From Faecalibacter bovis (GTDB lineage: Bacteria; Bacteroidota; Bacteroidia; Flavobacteriales; Weeksellaceae): a stretch of 64,000 bases of DNA. The translations under genes were made by a program, and so were the position numbers. Below the pieces are notes generated by a model. The model was not told where the DNA came from, searched no databases, and worked only from the letters and a program-made list of their open reading frames with translations. The stretch spans positions 1,404,001 through 1,468,000 of the forward strand of contig NZ_CP072842.1 in NCBI RefSeq assembly GCF_017948305.1. Reading direction: 5' to 3'. Below, in pieces: positions 27,341 to 32,424 of this stretch (its first letter is position 1; the number at the start of each line of letters is the position of its first letter).

Positions 27341-27366
27341 AAAAAGAGGCTATAAAGCCTCTTTTT
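27341..27366. terminator. Terminator of the beta-barrel/GLPGLI operon
   Basis: Perfect stem AAAAAGAGGC (27341-27350) / GCCTCTTTTT (27357-27366), 6-base loop. It ends the minus-strand unit 30897-27384. Confidence 0.88.
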
Positions 27367-27383
27367 GATTATTATGTATGGTA

Positions 27384-30104
27384 TTAGAATTTATATCTCA
27401 AATTTACTAAGAAATAACGTCCTAAAACATCTGTTGTAGTTGTTTGAATAAAGTTATCGTTAAATGAGTTATTAACAATAACATTATTTCCTAATATGTT
27501 TCCAGCTACAAATGTGATGTAAGTCTTTTTAAAGGCATTGTAACGTAATGAAGCGTTTAATTCTTTTGCTTCGTTAATGCGAACTCCGTCACGGTTCTGA
27601 ATTCTGTAAGAGAAATCAGATTGTAATAAAAGTTTATCCGTTACATTCCAAGCAATATCTCCGAAAGGTCTCCAGTTTGCAAACTCTTGTTCAATTCTCG
27701 ATTCGAATTTAGAGAAAGAAGCATTTAATCCAGCTTTTAATTCTAATTTCTTTTTAATTGTAAATGTATTAGTCAATGTATAGTTTTGGTTAAAACTTTT
27801 ATTGTTTACATCTACATAATCAGCATCATTTATACCTTTTGTATATGTGTACGAATTAGACCAAGATAAATTTCCGTTTAAACGTGCTTGGTACCATTTT
27901 TTGAAACGTTTACCAAGATTGAAATTTGCACCATAGCTTTCTTCTTCGTAATCTGAATTGATCAATGTATTTTCTTGAATAATAGAAAATGCATCAGGAT
28001 TATTTTCATCTAAAAACACTTTGTCCATGCGAGAAGCAGTTTGTATACTTCTGTCACGTTTTGTGTAAGTAAGACCAGCAAAAACGTTAAAGAAATTAAA
28101 CGAATTAAAGTGATGGAAATTTAAAGATGAATTATGCGTTAAAGCTTGTCTTAAATTTTGATTTCCGATAAATACAGAACGATAGTTTTGTAAAGAATAA
28201 GATTCAGTTAGATCTTTTGCATGTGGAAAACTATAATTTTGGCTGTAATTAGCAAATAAACTTGTAGCGTTATTAAAGCTATATTTTAAGTTTGCGTGAG
28301 GTAAAATTTTCGTTTCGTTAAACTTGATACTTTTACCATCTACAAAATTTGCCTTTTCATTAAAGTTAGAAACTCCAGCTCCTAAATCAGCTTGAAATTT
28401 CCCGATTTTCTTCGTAATTGTAGCATCAGCAAACGTTTCATTGTAATCAAATTCAGTATCAGAAATCATTGAACGTCCATTGATACTTTGTGTTACTAAA
28501 TTTCCTAAATCATAGATTTTATTGTCTAAATCTTGCATAGAAAAGTTTGTACCAATTTTCAACTTTAAGTTAGTTGAGTTATTGATTAGATGGTTGTAAA
28601 CTGAATATATTTGAAATGTATTTGTTACATATTTCTGGTTTTGGTTAATTAAATAACGACCAGAATTAGATGCTGTAGATTCAAAAATATTGAATATTTT
28701 TTCTTCAGAATCCATAAATAAATCAGGCGTTTCCTTTTGGTATTGGTGACGTAAATAGAAACCAATATTATGATCACGACCAACTTTACGGATATAAGAT
28801 AACGTTTGACTAAAACTATAATTTTTGCGATCTGTAAGATTTTTGTTGAAACCTGTAAATTCACCGTTTCTGTAACGATCTACACCTTGTTCGTCATCAT
28901 TACCCGTATAATTTAAGTTTAATCGGTATTTAACTTCACCTTTATCATTTGGGTTCCAATCAATACGTAAACGTCCCATTGCAGATAATAAATTATTTTT
29001 ATTTTCTGAACGATCTTCTTCAGTAAATCCATCATTATATTTACGTTCTACGATAGAATTGTATCTGATATTATTTGTATTAACCAATCCAAATCCAGAG
29101 ATTTTTAAACTTTTCTTAGGTTCGTATCCAAAGTGAGCTGCACCATTGTATGTGTTCATTTCGGCAGCATTCGTATTAGATCCAAAATTTAATGCAGAAT
29201 TTCCTCCACGTAAAGAATAGATACTACCTTCAGCGCTAAATTCTGAGAATCCACCGAAGAAACTAAAATAATCTTCACGATCAAAAACTTCTTTACCATA
29301 GGTATTGAAATCGTTGATTACCGTAGCATCCATTTTTTCAGAAAAATAAAACATTTTTAACTGTGCATCGGCATGTTTGTCAGCATCACCACCCAAGGTA
29401 GCATTACCAAAAACTAAACTTTTCATGTCTTCTTTCAACTCGATATTTAACGAAGCTTGTTCGTCTTCTTGTAATGAAGAAGCAAATGGATTAGATTTGA
29501 ATTTAGTATTTAACTGAATTTTAGAAACAGCATCAGAAGGTAAATTTTTATTTAAAAGTTTTGTGTTACCACCAAGAACTTCGCGTCCACCAACAGTAAT
29601 GGTATTAATTTCTTTTCCTTTGTGATACACTTTTCCATTTTCAACTTCGATACCTGGAAGTTTTTTTAAGATATCTTCTAAAACTTCTTCGTTACCAACT
29701 TTGAAAGAATCTGCGTCATATTCAATCGTATCACCTTTAATTTTAATTGCTTGTTGAGCTTTTACAATTGTTTCTTGTAAAGAAATTGTTTCACCACCTT
29801 TGATTAATTTAATCTTTTCGGTTTTATTTCCATTTAGTTCAATTTTCTTCACTAAAGTTTCAAAACCTGGTTGTTCAATTTCAATTTCGTACGCTTGATT
29901 ACAAGGAAGTGTAAATTCAAATTCACCATCATTATTAGTGAATACAAATCCTTTTCCTTCGTTATTAGAATCAAAAGCAGAAACAGATGCATCAGTTACA
30001 GGAATTCCATTTTCGTCTAAAATTGTTCCTTTCAATTTACAATCTTGAGCGAAAGATGTAACCATCGCAAATTGTAAAAAGAAAAAGTAGAGTAAATTTT
30101 TCAT
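27384..30104 (-). CDS. Outer-membrane beta-barrel protein, TonB-receptor-like with carboxypeptidase-regulatory-like domain
   Basis: A 906-residue protein with signal peptide (cleavage near SFAQ), then an N-terminal carboxypeptidase-regulatory-like domain (about 23-105: KLKGTILDENGIPVTDASVS, then DGEFEF), a plug-like region (ILKKLPGIEVENGKVYHKGK, NTITVGGREV) and a large strand-rich barrel ending in YFLVNLRYKF. This is the outer-membrane beta-barrel type often found next to GLPGLI proteins in Flavobacteriia; the GLPGLI gene lies 19 bases upstream in the same operon. A distinct TonB box is not evident, and the substrate is unknown. No SusD-type partner is present. Confidence 0.85.
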   Translation of the reverse strand: MKNLLYFFFLQFAMVTSFAQDCKLKGTILDENGIPVTDASVSAFDSNNEGKGFVFTNNDGEFEFTLPCNQAYEIEIEQPGFETLVKKIELNGNKTEKIKLIKGGETISLQETIVKAQQAIKIKGDTIEYDADSFKVGNEEVLEDILKKLPGIEVENGKVYHKGKEINTITVGGREVLGGNTKLLNKNLPSDAVSKIQLNTKFKSNPFASSLQEDEQASLNIELKEDMKSLVFGNATLGGDADKHADAQLKMFYFSEKMDATVINDFNTYGKEVFDREDYFSFFGGFSEFSAEGSIYSLRGGNSALNFGSNTNAAEMNTYNGAAHFGYEPKKSLKISGFGLVNTNNIRYNSIVERKYNDGFTEEDRSENKNNLLSAMGRLRIDWNPNDKGEVKYRLNLNYTGNDDEQGVDRYRNGEFTGFNKNLTDRKNYSFSQTLSYIRKVGRDHNIGFYLRHQYQKETPDLFMDSEEKIFNIFESTASNSGRYLINQNQKYVTNTFQIYSVYNHLINNSTNLKLKIGTNFSMQDLDNKIYDLGNLVTQSINGRSMISDTEFDYNETFADATITKKIGKFQADLGAGVSNFNEKANFVDGKSIKFNETKILPHANLKYSFNNATSLFANYSQNYSFPHAKDLTESYSLQNYRSVFIGNQNLRQALTHNSSLNFHHFNSFNFFNVFAGLTYTKRDRSIQTASRMDKVFLDENNPDAFSIIQENTLINSDYEEESYGANFNLGKRFKKWYQARLNGNLSWSNSYTYTKGINDADYVDVNNKSFNQNYTLTNTFTIKKKLELKAGLNASFSKFESRIEQEFANWRPFGDIAWNVTDKLLLQSDFSYRIQNRDGVRINEAKELNASLRYNAFKKTYITFVAGNILGNNVIVNNSFNDNFIQTTTTDVLGRYFLVNLRYKF

Positions 30105-30123
30105 TTATTTTGGTTGTATAATT

Positions 30124-30897
30124 TTATTGGGTGTCGACTCCGCTACCCATCATTTCTTTGTATTGTTCTTGTAATTTTTTCATTTCTTCCATGAATTCTT
30201 TTTCAGTAACAACTTTTCCTTTTGTCGGAAGTGAAACTTTTAATTCTTTGTCAGAAATTTTTAATTCTTTTAAAGTAAAAATCATTTTAGCATTGTTAAC
30301 TTCATATTCAGCTTTGATGATTAAACCTGGTAAACCACTAATACTTTGTGGACCATCTTTAATTGCAATTTCTGGTGCATACCATGCGTTAACTTTTACA
30401 GAATCCATCATTACACCTTCTGCTTTAGTTACTTTATAACCTGCAATTTCAGCTTTTTCACGAGTAATTTTCCAGTTATAATTTGGTGAATCCTTCATTA
30501 AATACTGCTTTACACCCATGTCTATTTCTTTGTAATAAGTAGCTGGAGTAGTAGTTAAATCTTTATAGTAAGGAAACTTATCCATTGCAGTAATTTGTTG
30601 AACTATCATTCCACCTGCAGATTGCGAATTTGAAATTTTTTCTTCCAGTTTAAATGAAGATTGTTTACCATTCGAGTTTAAAAAGTAGTTCATGAAAATC
30701 CCAGCGTTAATCTCAGCTTTTAACATTTCTTCTACTTGTGAACGATATGCTTGTGGAACTTGTTTTAGAGTTGCGTCTAAATCTAATTTCATCTCGCAAA
30801 CATAAGTTGCTTCAATATTTTGAGTTTTATTTTCTTGTGCAAAAGAAAAGCTGGTTGTAAGAAAACCTAAAGCGAATGAAAATAATAATTTTTTCAT
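30124..30897 (-). CDS. GLPGLI family protein
   Basis: A 257-residue secreted protein of the GLPGLI family, known mainly from Bacteroidota and functionally uncharacterised. Signal peptide MKKLLFSFALGFLTTSFSFAQ; the family motif appears as ISGLPGLIIKAEYE at about residue 195, after NAWYAPEIAIKDGP. The mature chain is beta-rich, with a charged C-terminal helix (EEMKKLQEQYKEMMG). It is the first gene of an operon with the beta-barrel receptor, which points to a joint role at the outer membrane; the role itself is inference. A paralogue lies at 31642-32424. Confidence 0.88.
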   Translation of the reverse strand: MKKLLFSFALGFLTTSFSFAQENKTQNIEATYVCEMKLDLDATLKQVPQAYRSQVEEMLKAEINAGIFMNYFLNSNGKQSSFKLEEKISNSQSAGGMIVQQITAMDKFPYYKDLTTTPATYYKEIDMGVKQYLMKDSPNYNWKITREKAEIAGYKVTKAEGVMMDSVKVNAWYAPEIAIKDGPQSISGLPGLIIKAEYEVNNAKMIFTLKELKISDKELKVSLPTKGKVVTEKEFMEEMKKLQEQYKEMMGSGVDTQ

Positions 30898-30942
30898 AAT
30901 AAAAGTTGTTTTAAATGGTTAGTAGTGGTTGGTATTAAAACG

Positions 30943-31545
30943 TTACAAAATGTAAGAAGATATTTTTCCGCCTTTGGCTCTGAAGTTATCTTTAAGATCT
31001 ATAAAATGGATGGGATCAATGGCTTTTGTAGATTCATCTAAAATAGTAGATTCGTAACCCAAAGTAAGCGCATCCATAGCAGTGTAGTACACACAAAAAT
31101 CTGCTGCTAACCCACAAACGAAAACTGAAGTTACTTTACGTTCTTGTAAATAGCCGTGTAATCCGGTAGCTTTTTTATGTCCATTATCAAAAAAACCACT
31201 GTACGAATCTATTTCTGGATTTGTACCTTTTCTGAAAATAGCTTCAATTTTATTTGTGTTTAAATCTTTATGAAGTTCAGCTCCTTTAGTTGATTGTATG
31301 CAGTGATCTGGCCAAAGTGTTTGTTGTAATCCATTTAAATCAATCACATCAAATGGATTTTTATCTTCATGTTGTGAAGCAAAACTTTTATGATTCGCTG
31401 GATGCCAATCTTGAGTTGCAACTACGATCTCAAATTTTTTTTGAATTTCGTTGATGCGAGATATAATTTTATCACCGTCCGGAACGGCTAAAGATCCTCC
31501 AGGAATAAAGTCATTCTGGATATCTACAATAATTAATGCTTTCAT
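30943..31545 (-). CDS. pncA: Nicotinamidase/pyrazinamidase
   Basis: Hydrolyses nicotinamide to nicotinate for NAD salvage. A 200-residue cysteine hydrolase (isochorismatase-like fold). The triad is visible: Asp8 (VDIQNDF), Lys106 (FRKGTNP) and Cys151 (AADFCVYYTA). Metal ligands are in TQDWHPANH (Asp46, His48, His52). The GLAADFCV region and LWPDHC are standard for bacterial PncA. It lies between two GLPGLI genes on the same strand but with 45- and 96-base gaps, so operon membership is uncertain. Confidence 0.93.
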   Translation of the reverse strand: MKALIIVDIQNDFIPGGSLAVPDGDKIISRINEIQKKFEIVVATQDWHPANHKSFASQHEDKNPFDVIDLNGLQQTLWPDHCIQSTKGAELHKDLNTNKIEAIFRKGTNPEIDSYSGFFDNGHKKATGLHGYLQERKVTSVFVCGLAADFCVYYTAMDALTLGYESTILDESTKAIDPIHFIDLKDNFRAKGGKISSYIL

Positions 31546-31641: not shown

Positions 31642-32424
31642 TTAATCTCTACGATTTACCCCTTGATCGCGCATTTGCTCGAATCGTTGACGTTGTTCGT
31701 CTTGTAATTTTTTTAAATCTGCTTCTGTAATTGTAGATTTTGCTTTTGGAGCTTCTAAATTTTTTGTGTCGTTCACAGTTTTAATATCTGTGATAGTAAT
31801 TACTTTTCTTCCTTTGATTGGACCTTGTTCAATTTCAGTTGAAACTTCAAGAATTAATCCAGGTAAACCCCAATAATTTTCAGGACCAGTTTTAGCCGGA
31901 ATTTTTGTTGTATACCAAGCTACAATAGTTTGTCCGTCTTTTTCGGCAGTAGCTTTACGAGCTTCATTACCTAAAATTGTTCTTGTTTCACGCGTCATTT
32001 TCCAATCGTAGTTTGGCAATTCATCTTTAACTGTATATGATTTAGAGAACATATTTACTTCTTTCATATAAGTTTTAATCGAAATATCTTTATAAATATT
32101 ATCACCACCACCAAAACGCATCATTCTCATTCCACCACGACCACCAGGACCGCTTTGTTGATCGTTACTAATTTTTTCAATAGCCTTGTAAGTTGATTGA
32201 TCTCCAAAAATTGTAAGAGTACTCTCCTGAGGTTCTTGAATTCTCTTCATCATTTGTTCTTGCATTTCTTTAGGCATTTGTCTGCCGCTTCCACCACCTG
32301 GAGGTTGAAATGTAAAATCTTCTGGAAGGATTAATTTTGAAGAATAAGTAACTTCGAACTTTTCAGTTTGAGCGTAAGAAAATGCTGAAAGAGCAACAGT
32401 AGTTATAATAAGTAATTTTTTCAT
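31642..32424 (-). CDS. GLPGLI family protein (second copy)
   Basis: A 260-residue secreted protein when started at ATG 32424, which gives a clean signal peptide (MKKLLIITTVALSAFSYAQ); the frame is open 11 codons further, but that adds a non-signal extension. The family motif appears as YWGLPGLILEVSTE. It differs from the copy at 30124 by Gly/Met/Arg-rich segments (PPGGGSGRQMPKEMQEQMMK and SGPGGRGGMRMMRFGGGDN), possibly metal-interacting or flexible. No beta-barrel gene is directly beside it. The function of the family is unknown. Confidence 0.87.
   Translation of the reverse strand: MKKLLIITTVALSAFSYAQTEKFEVTYSSKLILPEDFTFQPPGGGSGRQMPKEMQEQMMKRIQEPQESTLTIFGDQSTYKAIEKISNDQQSGPGGRGGMRMMRFGGGDNIYKDISIKTYMKEVNMFSKSYTVKDELPNYDWKMTRETRTILGNEARKATAEKDGQTIVAWYTTKIPAKTGPENYWGLPGLILEVSTEIEQGPIKGRKVITITDIKTVNDTKNLEAPKAKSTITEADLKKLQDEQRQRFEQMRDQGVNRRD

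Follow-up and report, generated by a model that had tools for sequence, protein, structure and literature searches.

Do a GLPGLI gene and an outer-membrane barrel gene that stand next to each other in a Faecalibacter bovis genome belong to one system, and if so, what would that system carry across the envelope? The question arises in the window, by which we mean the whole 64,000-nucleotide stretch of DNA that was analysed, where the following features were assigned:

27341..27366 (about), minus strand: hairpin with T-run 3' of the barrel gene, intrinsic-terminator-like (sequence and RNA fold)
27384..30104, minus strand: TonB-dependent-receptor-like outer-membrane barrel, 906 aa (PF14905, PF13620, PF00593; Foldseek)
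27387..29408, minus strand: beta-barrel part, residues 233-906 (PF14905/PF00593; model strands, low confidence)
29409..29756, minus strand: diverged plug domain, residues 117-232 (hhalign probability 95.7, E 9e-9)
29757..29780, minus strand: TonB-box-like motif LQETIVKA, residues 109-116 (hhalign, on the L-x-EV-x-V box region of canonical receptors)
29808..30044, minus strand: N-terminal CarboxypepD_reg domain, residues 21-99 (PF13620 in 26/26 family members)
30048..30104, minus strand: barrel signal peptide, residues 1-19 (sequence MKNLLYFFFLQFAMVTSFA; alignment)
30124..30897, minus strand: GLPGLI family protein, 257 aa, predicted periplasmic, with predicted LolA-like fold (TIGR01200 129 bits; model; fold searches)
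30319..30336, minus strand: GLPGLI motif, residues 188-193 (conservation in 55 sequences)
30838..30897, minus strand: GLPGLI signal peptide, residues 1-20, no lipobox cysteine (sequence MKKLLFSFALGFLTTSFSFA; A20 and Q21 invariant in 26 relatives)
30919..30947, minus strand: promoter-like element, conserved, TGTAACGTT-N15-ACTAA, located some 20 bp 5' of the GLPGLI start
30943..31545, minus strand: nicotinamidase (pncA) gene, syntenic neighbour (NF008623 235 bits)
31642..32421, minus strand: second GLPGLI gene, tandem relative lacking its own barrel (TIGR01200 141 bits; tree)

The gene pair and its transcription signals

The original prediction, made from the sequence of the window, had placed a GLPGLI gene 19 bases upstream of a 906-residue barrel and had noted that no SusD-like lipoprotein was present, and both statements hold. 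The two ORFs are separated by 19 bp with GLPGLI upstream, the GLPGLI protein scores 129 bits against TIGR01200 (curated cut-off 50), and the neighbours of the pair are pncA and a 135-aa ORF. We found no SusD-like gene adjoining the window pair or beside the pair in 10 syntenic relatives, and no surface lipoprotein gene in the window module. Although pncA has an identical position in 10/10 relatives (L023-L032), we did not count it as a part of the module because it is kept within the genus and is absent from the surroundings of pairs in other families. A pncA-like gene was also seen beside a CarboxypepD barrel module in a distant genome (L118:4206-4796), where it is convergent and the barrel is unpaired. 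Just upstream of the pair, beyond pncA, is the second GLPGLI gene, which in the GLPGLI tree falls in a group with the GLPGLI of the window pair and further solo copies from the Weeksellaceae.

A terminator shared by the two genes had also been proposed, and here the outcome is divided. The window barrel does have a hairpin with a T-run at its 3' side (the RNA fold of the 55-base stretch holding it has an energy of -14.7 kcal/mol), but a single common transcript is not conserved, as the gap between GLPGLI and barrel in relatives from Empedobacter, Algoriella and Chishuiella is 87-103 bp and usually contains a hairpin-like inverted repeat. The repeats in these gaps (L025-L031) are perhaps attenuators or partial terminators.

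Upstream of the window GLPGLI gene, the promoter-like element keeps its boxes TGTAAC and ACTAA unchanged across 11 species, and the remainder drifts. A pattern search of nine genus genomes gave no genome-wide enrichment of the element (47 sites versus 33 for a reversed control), and the promoter argument therefore rests on its conservation at orthologous places. The element also stands 15-45 bp ahead of other start codons, at places that recur between orthologous loci: before the gene of a 166-aa ECF sigma factor (G000, position 2730.9 kb) and before genes for a DrrA-like ABC ATPase, an M16 peptidase, a BPSS1780-family membrane protein, and an 87-aa product followed by a TraB-family gene (element-bearing loci: window 30919-30947, L246, L211, L202, L215 and L228). 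To judge from these sequences, the element resembles a promoter read by an ECF sigma factor that would govern an envelope-type regulon. Control of GLPGLI genes by a regulator has been described in Riemerella, in which several are under PhoP control (PMC9603813).

The barrel resembles a TonB-dependent receptor in anatomy

The barrel matches PF14905 (OMP_b-brl_3, 62.9 bits), PF13620 (CarboxypepD_reg, 56 bits) and PF00593 (TonB_dep_Rec, 30.3 bits against a cut-off of 27), the second of these bearing out the carboxypeptidase-like domain of the original prediction. Among the 26 aligned family members, CarboxypepD was found in 26, OMP_b-brl_3 in 18 and TonB_dep_Rec in nine, and the plug model PF07715 matched only two. 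Is there nonetheless a plug? We compared a family profile of residues 100-235 with 24 canonical Bacteroidota plugs from three genomes by hhalign, and the match (probability 95.7, E 9e-9, score 53.9) was well above those of 20 shuffled-column controls, none of which exceeded 18; other parts of the barrel scored far below the plug region. The plug-like region that had been suspected is thus confirmed, and the check for a TonB box returned the motif LQETIVKA upstream of the plug, an alignment that is evidence at the level of a motif. The structure model of the barrel is weak (pLDDT 54, with 11 sequences in the alignment), so that the strands are not countable in it against the 22 of a TonB-dependent receptor, but the best 50 Foldseek matches to this model are all TonB-dependent transporters. 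Given the CarboxypepD domain, the plug profile match, the motif in the TonB-box region and the Foldseek matches, the barrel is like a TonB-dependent receptor in anatomy and is putatively energised by TonB. Proteins resembling TonB_C are encoded in the window's genome.

GLPGLI and barrel genes are adjacent phylum-wide

If the two proteins work together, then their genes should keep company beyond this locus. The window's genome is complete (2.84 Mb) and encodes 13 GLPGLI proteins above the curated cut-off, and for four of them the next gene downstream is a barrel of the same type, with gaps ranging from 19 bp to small overlaps. As the barrel profile was built from paired barrels, counting from the barrel side would be circular, and the case for co-occurrence therefore rests on the GLPGLI side. 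From a class-wide draw we took another 22 genomes and, disregarding neighbours, the best GLPGLI match in each; a barrel adjoins it in 19 (as the next gene, or the next past a tandem GLPGLI copy), which has a binomial probability of about 5e-28 if 2.5 percent of random genes are assumed to have such a neighbour by chance. Likewise, among 60 phylum-wide genomes, almost all of those outside the Weeksellaceae with a good GLPGLI match show the pairing, which thereby extends to almost all the families in that sample. Gene order varies, with either GLPGLI or the barrel first, and paired copies are scattered over the whole tree of 67 GLPGLI proteins. The pairing is consequently more general than was first claimed.

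Many GLPGLI genes, however, stand alone. In the window's genome nine out of 13 have no adjacent barrel, and in another Weeksellaceae genome (G012) this is true of all 11 good GLPGLI genes. Since Weeksellaceae genomes in our sample mostly have 4-28 copies, the solo genes are largely an expansion within that family, and their number implies that at least part of the GLPGLI family works without a barrel or with one in trans. One locus (L126, genome G084) has a tandem array of several GLPGLI genes with no barrel in the fetched stretch. We found no protein in which GLPGLI and barrel are fused, as a Rosetta stone for the pair, among the matches listed; the longest frames, of about 560 aa, are PNGase-type in the case checked.

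The two proteins also share a history. In a mirror-tree test of 18 pairs from 12 genomes, the GLPGLI and barrel trees gave distances that correlate with a Mantel r of 0.85 (p<5e-5), the highest of 20000 permutations reaching 0.56, and when partners were swapped within genomes, the true assignment ranked 1 of 288. These results indicate that the partners stayed together across several ancient duplications. The window pair itself groups with pairs of genomes from the same order (L080, L084, L085). Taken with the 19/22 unselected genomes and the 4/13 genes in the window's own genome, the mirrored trees uphold the expectation that GLPGLI and barrel co-occur beyond chance.

GLPGLI is predicted to be a soluble periplasmic protein of LolA-like fold

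The GLPGLI signal peptide is of type I, ends in SFAQ and has no lipobox, from which we predict a soluble periplasmic protein. A solo GLPGLI elsewhere in the sample (L034:4536-5363) has a signal peptide that ends in cysteine and is apparently a lipoprotein version. In the motif that names the family, G191 is invariant in 55 sequences, and L189, P190 and I193 are conserved in at least 90 percent.

The structure model of GLPGLI has a mean pLDDT of 82.8 (26 sequences), and its best matches among solved folds are the N-terminal domains of PNGaseL (Z 15.7) and PNGase F-II (Z 14.3), domains to which a sequence comparison also led (E 6e-14). The PNGase N-domain model PF22252 gave 27.5 bits on the window protein against a cut-off of 27.6, and we found neither of the PNGase catalytic domains, PF09112 and PF09113, in it, and therefore rejected the possibility that it is a PNGase-type enzyme. 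The window's genome does encode a full type II PNGase homologue with all three domains (L035:9964-11634), which accounts for a weak 562-aa GLPGLI match there.

The next fold matches, at Z 7-10 over 130-150 residues, are to LolA of many species, RseB/MucB, VioE, LolB and ependymins, with many LolA entries at Z 8-9.5 and an rmsd of about 4-5 over 130-150 residues. We found no match of GLPGLI to the LolA or LolB sequence families in Pfam or NCBIfam. On the strength of the model, GLPGLI is predicted to have the LolA/LolB/RseB/VioE fold. Half-barrels of the LolA type often bind lipids, acyl chains or peptides; a Z of 8-10 to such proteins denotes a common fold and is not proof of cargo binding.

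A small peptide gene accompanies the pair in a sister clade

Could the cargo be encoded nearby? Upstream of several GLPGLI genes of a sister clade we found an ORF of 70-110 aa that encodes a signal peptide and two or more cysteines. Such ORFs precede 11 of 137 GLPGLI genes versus two of 619 other genes at the same loci (p 3e-7). When one peptide was used as a query against eight genus genomes, all 13 matches were directly upstream of a GLPGLI gene, and at least 10 of them then have a barrel within the fetched DNA (peptide gene loci: L033:3968-4192, L037:5482-5712, L131, L136, L172, L182, L183, L184 and L250-L262). The signal peptides are very similar and the mature parts are hypervariable. We found no credible family for the peptides in Pfam or NCBIfam, and we dismissed weak toxin-subunit and other matches as chance, because they lay mostly over the signal peptide and far below cut-offs. 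The gene is absent from the window pair, the window clade and the barrel-first clades. A separate case is a bacteriocin-like peptide with a Chryseobacterium-type leader (NF047798), whose gene precedes a solo GLPGLI gene by about 65 bp (L075:4454-4672).

What does the pair do?

The original prediction had named uptake, export and processing as candidate functions, and it is partly supported. The reading that we favour, by a modest inclination, is that the window pair constitutes one transport pathway, in which a barrel energised by TonB is served by a dedicated periplasmic partner that binds cargo. We are led to it by the phylum-wide adjacency, the mirrored trees, the plug and TonB-box motif, the receptor-type barrel, the LolA-like fold of GLPGLI and the lack of SusD. 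In such a pathway, the barrel would act as the outer-membrane transporter, and GLPGLI, a soluble protein dedicated to it, would hold a hydrophobic or peptide cargo in its half-barrel and pass it on at the periplasmic side of the barrel. Contact between the proteins, cargo binding, dependence on TonB and direction are all what we infer from the above. We consider it somewhat more likely that a small ligand enters through the barrel and is received by GLPGLI than that cargo is exported, because import is the common task of such receptors. Counted against a transport pathway are the numerous GLPGLI genes without a barrel, the lack of a fusion, the low pLDDT of the barrel model, and the fact that we found no paper or experiment tying GLPGLI to transport in the literature searched.

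Might the cargo instead move outward? Export or surface display, in which a LolA-like GLPGLI would bring a secreted peptide, lipoprotein or lipid to the barrel for TonB-driven release, as in the case of Oar and PopC of Myxococcus, has to be taken seriously although we think it unlikely. Oar is composed alike, of a PF13620 extension, a plug that carries a TonB box and a barrel, and PopC secretion requires it (PMC6434023). F. johnsoniae delivers lipoproteins to its surface without any LolA or LolB (PMC11885536), and both the LolA/LolB fold predicted for GLPGLI and the small secreted peptides encoded directly upstream of it in sister-clade modules would suit such a role. However, nearly all known TonB-dependent receptors import, the window pair is without a small-peptide gene, and GLPGLI was found in only 48 of the 148 Bacteroidia genomes sampled; with about a third of genomes having it, GLPGLI cannot be the general route for surface lipoproteins. 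A more pointed proposal, which we put forward tentatively and regard as rather doubtful, is that GLPGLI-receptor pairs of Bacteroidota are dedicated peptide transport modules, in which a LolA-fold carrier would give a small secreted cysteine peptide to the TonB-driven barrel, or take one from it, the cargo gene being just upstream in many modules and elsewhere for the window pair.

Alternatively, GLPGLI could be an assembly chaperone or a sensor for its barrel in the manner of RseB/MucB, rather than a carrier of cargo. RseB and MucB are among its best fold matches, the partners co-evolve, and the window pair is behind a conserved element that it has in common with an ECF sigma-factor gene. Yet there is no anti-sigma partner adjoining the pair, solo GLPGLI genes are numerous, and other barrels of the same wider family do without GLPGLI, which together make this role improbable. 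We give still less credence to a self-peptide system, in which the small peptide would serve as toxin, signal or metal scavenger and the barrel would be the receptor for it, GLPGLI conferring immunity or taking the peptide in, with the window pair as a remnant or fixed variant. The cysteine peptide genes directly upstream of GLPGLI in 13/13 genome-wide matches, and their strongly varying mature parts behind similar signal peptides, are as such a system would have them, but the peptide's activity is hypothetical and the window clade and barrel-first clades have no peptide. Lastly, although synteny inside the genus would hold any neighbours together and solo copies are many, chance or passive neighbourhood with no functional link can be rejected on the 19/22 unselected genomes and the mirror trees, given that the pairing spans many families, differing surroundings and both gene orders.

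Comparison with known systems

The pairing appears to be undescribed: we found no mention of a barrel partner for GLPGLI in the literature searched, and on that scope our claim to novelty is provisional. Why should the pairing matter? GLPGLI is a large family without a function, and its link to a class of TonB-dependent receptors, together with a LolA fold, gives it a testable role as the periplasmic partner of an outer-membrane gate, for which the sister-clade peptide is a candidate cargo that can be tested directly.

The window protein, at 129 bits, is a member of the GLPGLI family (TIGR01200, PF09697), which carries no function. By both sequence (E 6e-14) and fold (Z 14-16) it is nearest to the N-terminal bowl-like domain of PNGase F-II and PNGaseL, the role of which has been called unknown (PMC12381499), but it stands alone, without the glycosidase domains PF09112/PF09113. 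With LolA and LolB it shares its predicted fold (Z 7-10) and a periplasmic location, whereas its identity to them is mostly 4-15 percent, it has no Pfam LolA/LolB match and no lipobox, and its gene is paired with a receptor barrel. The barrel, for its part, resembles the Oar/CarboxypepD class of TonB-dependent receptors in having a type I signal peptide, CarboxypepD_reg, TonB-box-like motif, plug and barrel in the same order; it differs in that the plug is too diverged for PF07715 in 24/26 members and in that its constant partner is a GLPGLI gene. As in SusC/SusD (RagA/RagB), a CarboxypepD-bearing TonB-dependent Bacteroidota barrel is accompanied by a partner gene, but no SusC/RagA NCBIfam model matches any of 26 barrel-family members, and since SusD is also lacking, we rejected a SusCD variant, in line with the original view that the pair is different from SusCD. 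If the transport reading is true, the pair would join SusCD as the second type of bipartite receptor system in Bacteroidota, one in which the place of the surface lipoprotein SusD is taken by a partner predicted to be soluble, periplasmic and on the inner side of the barrel.
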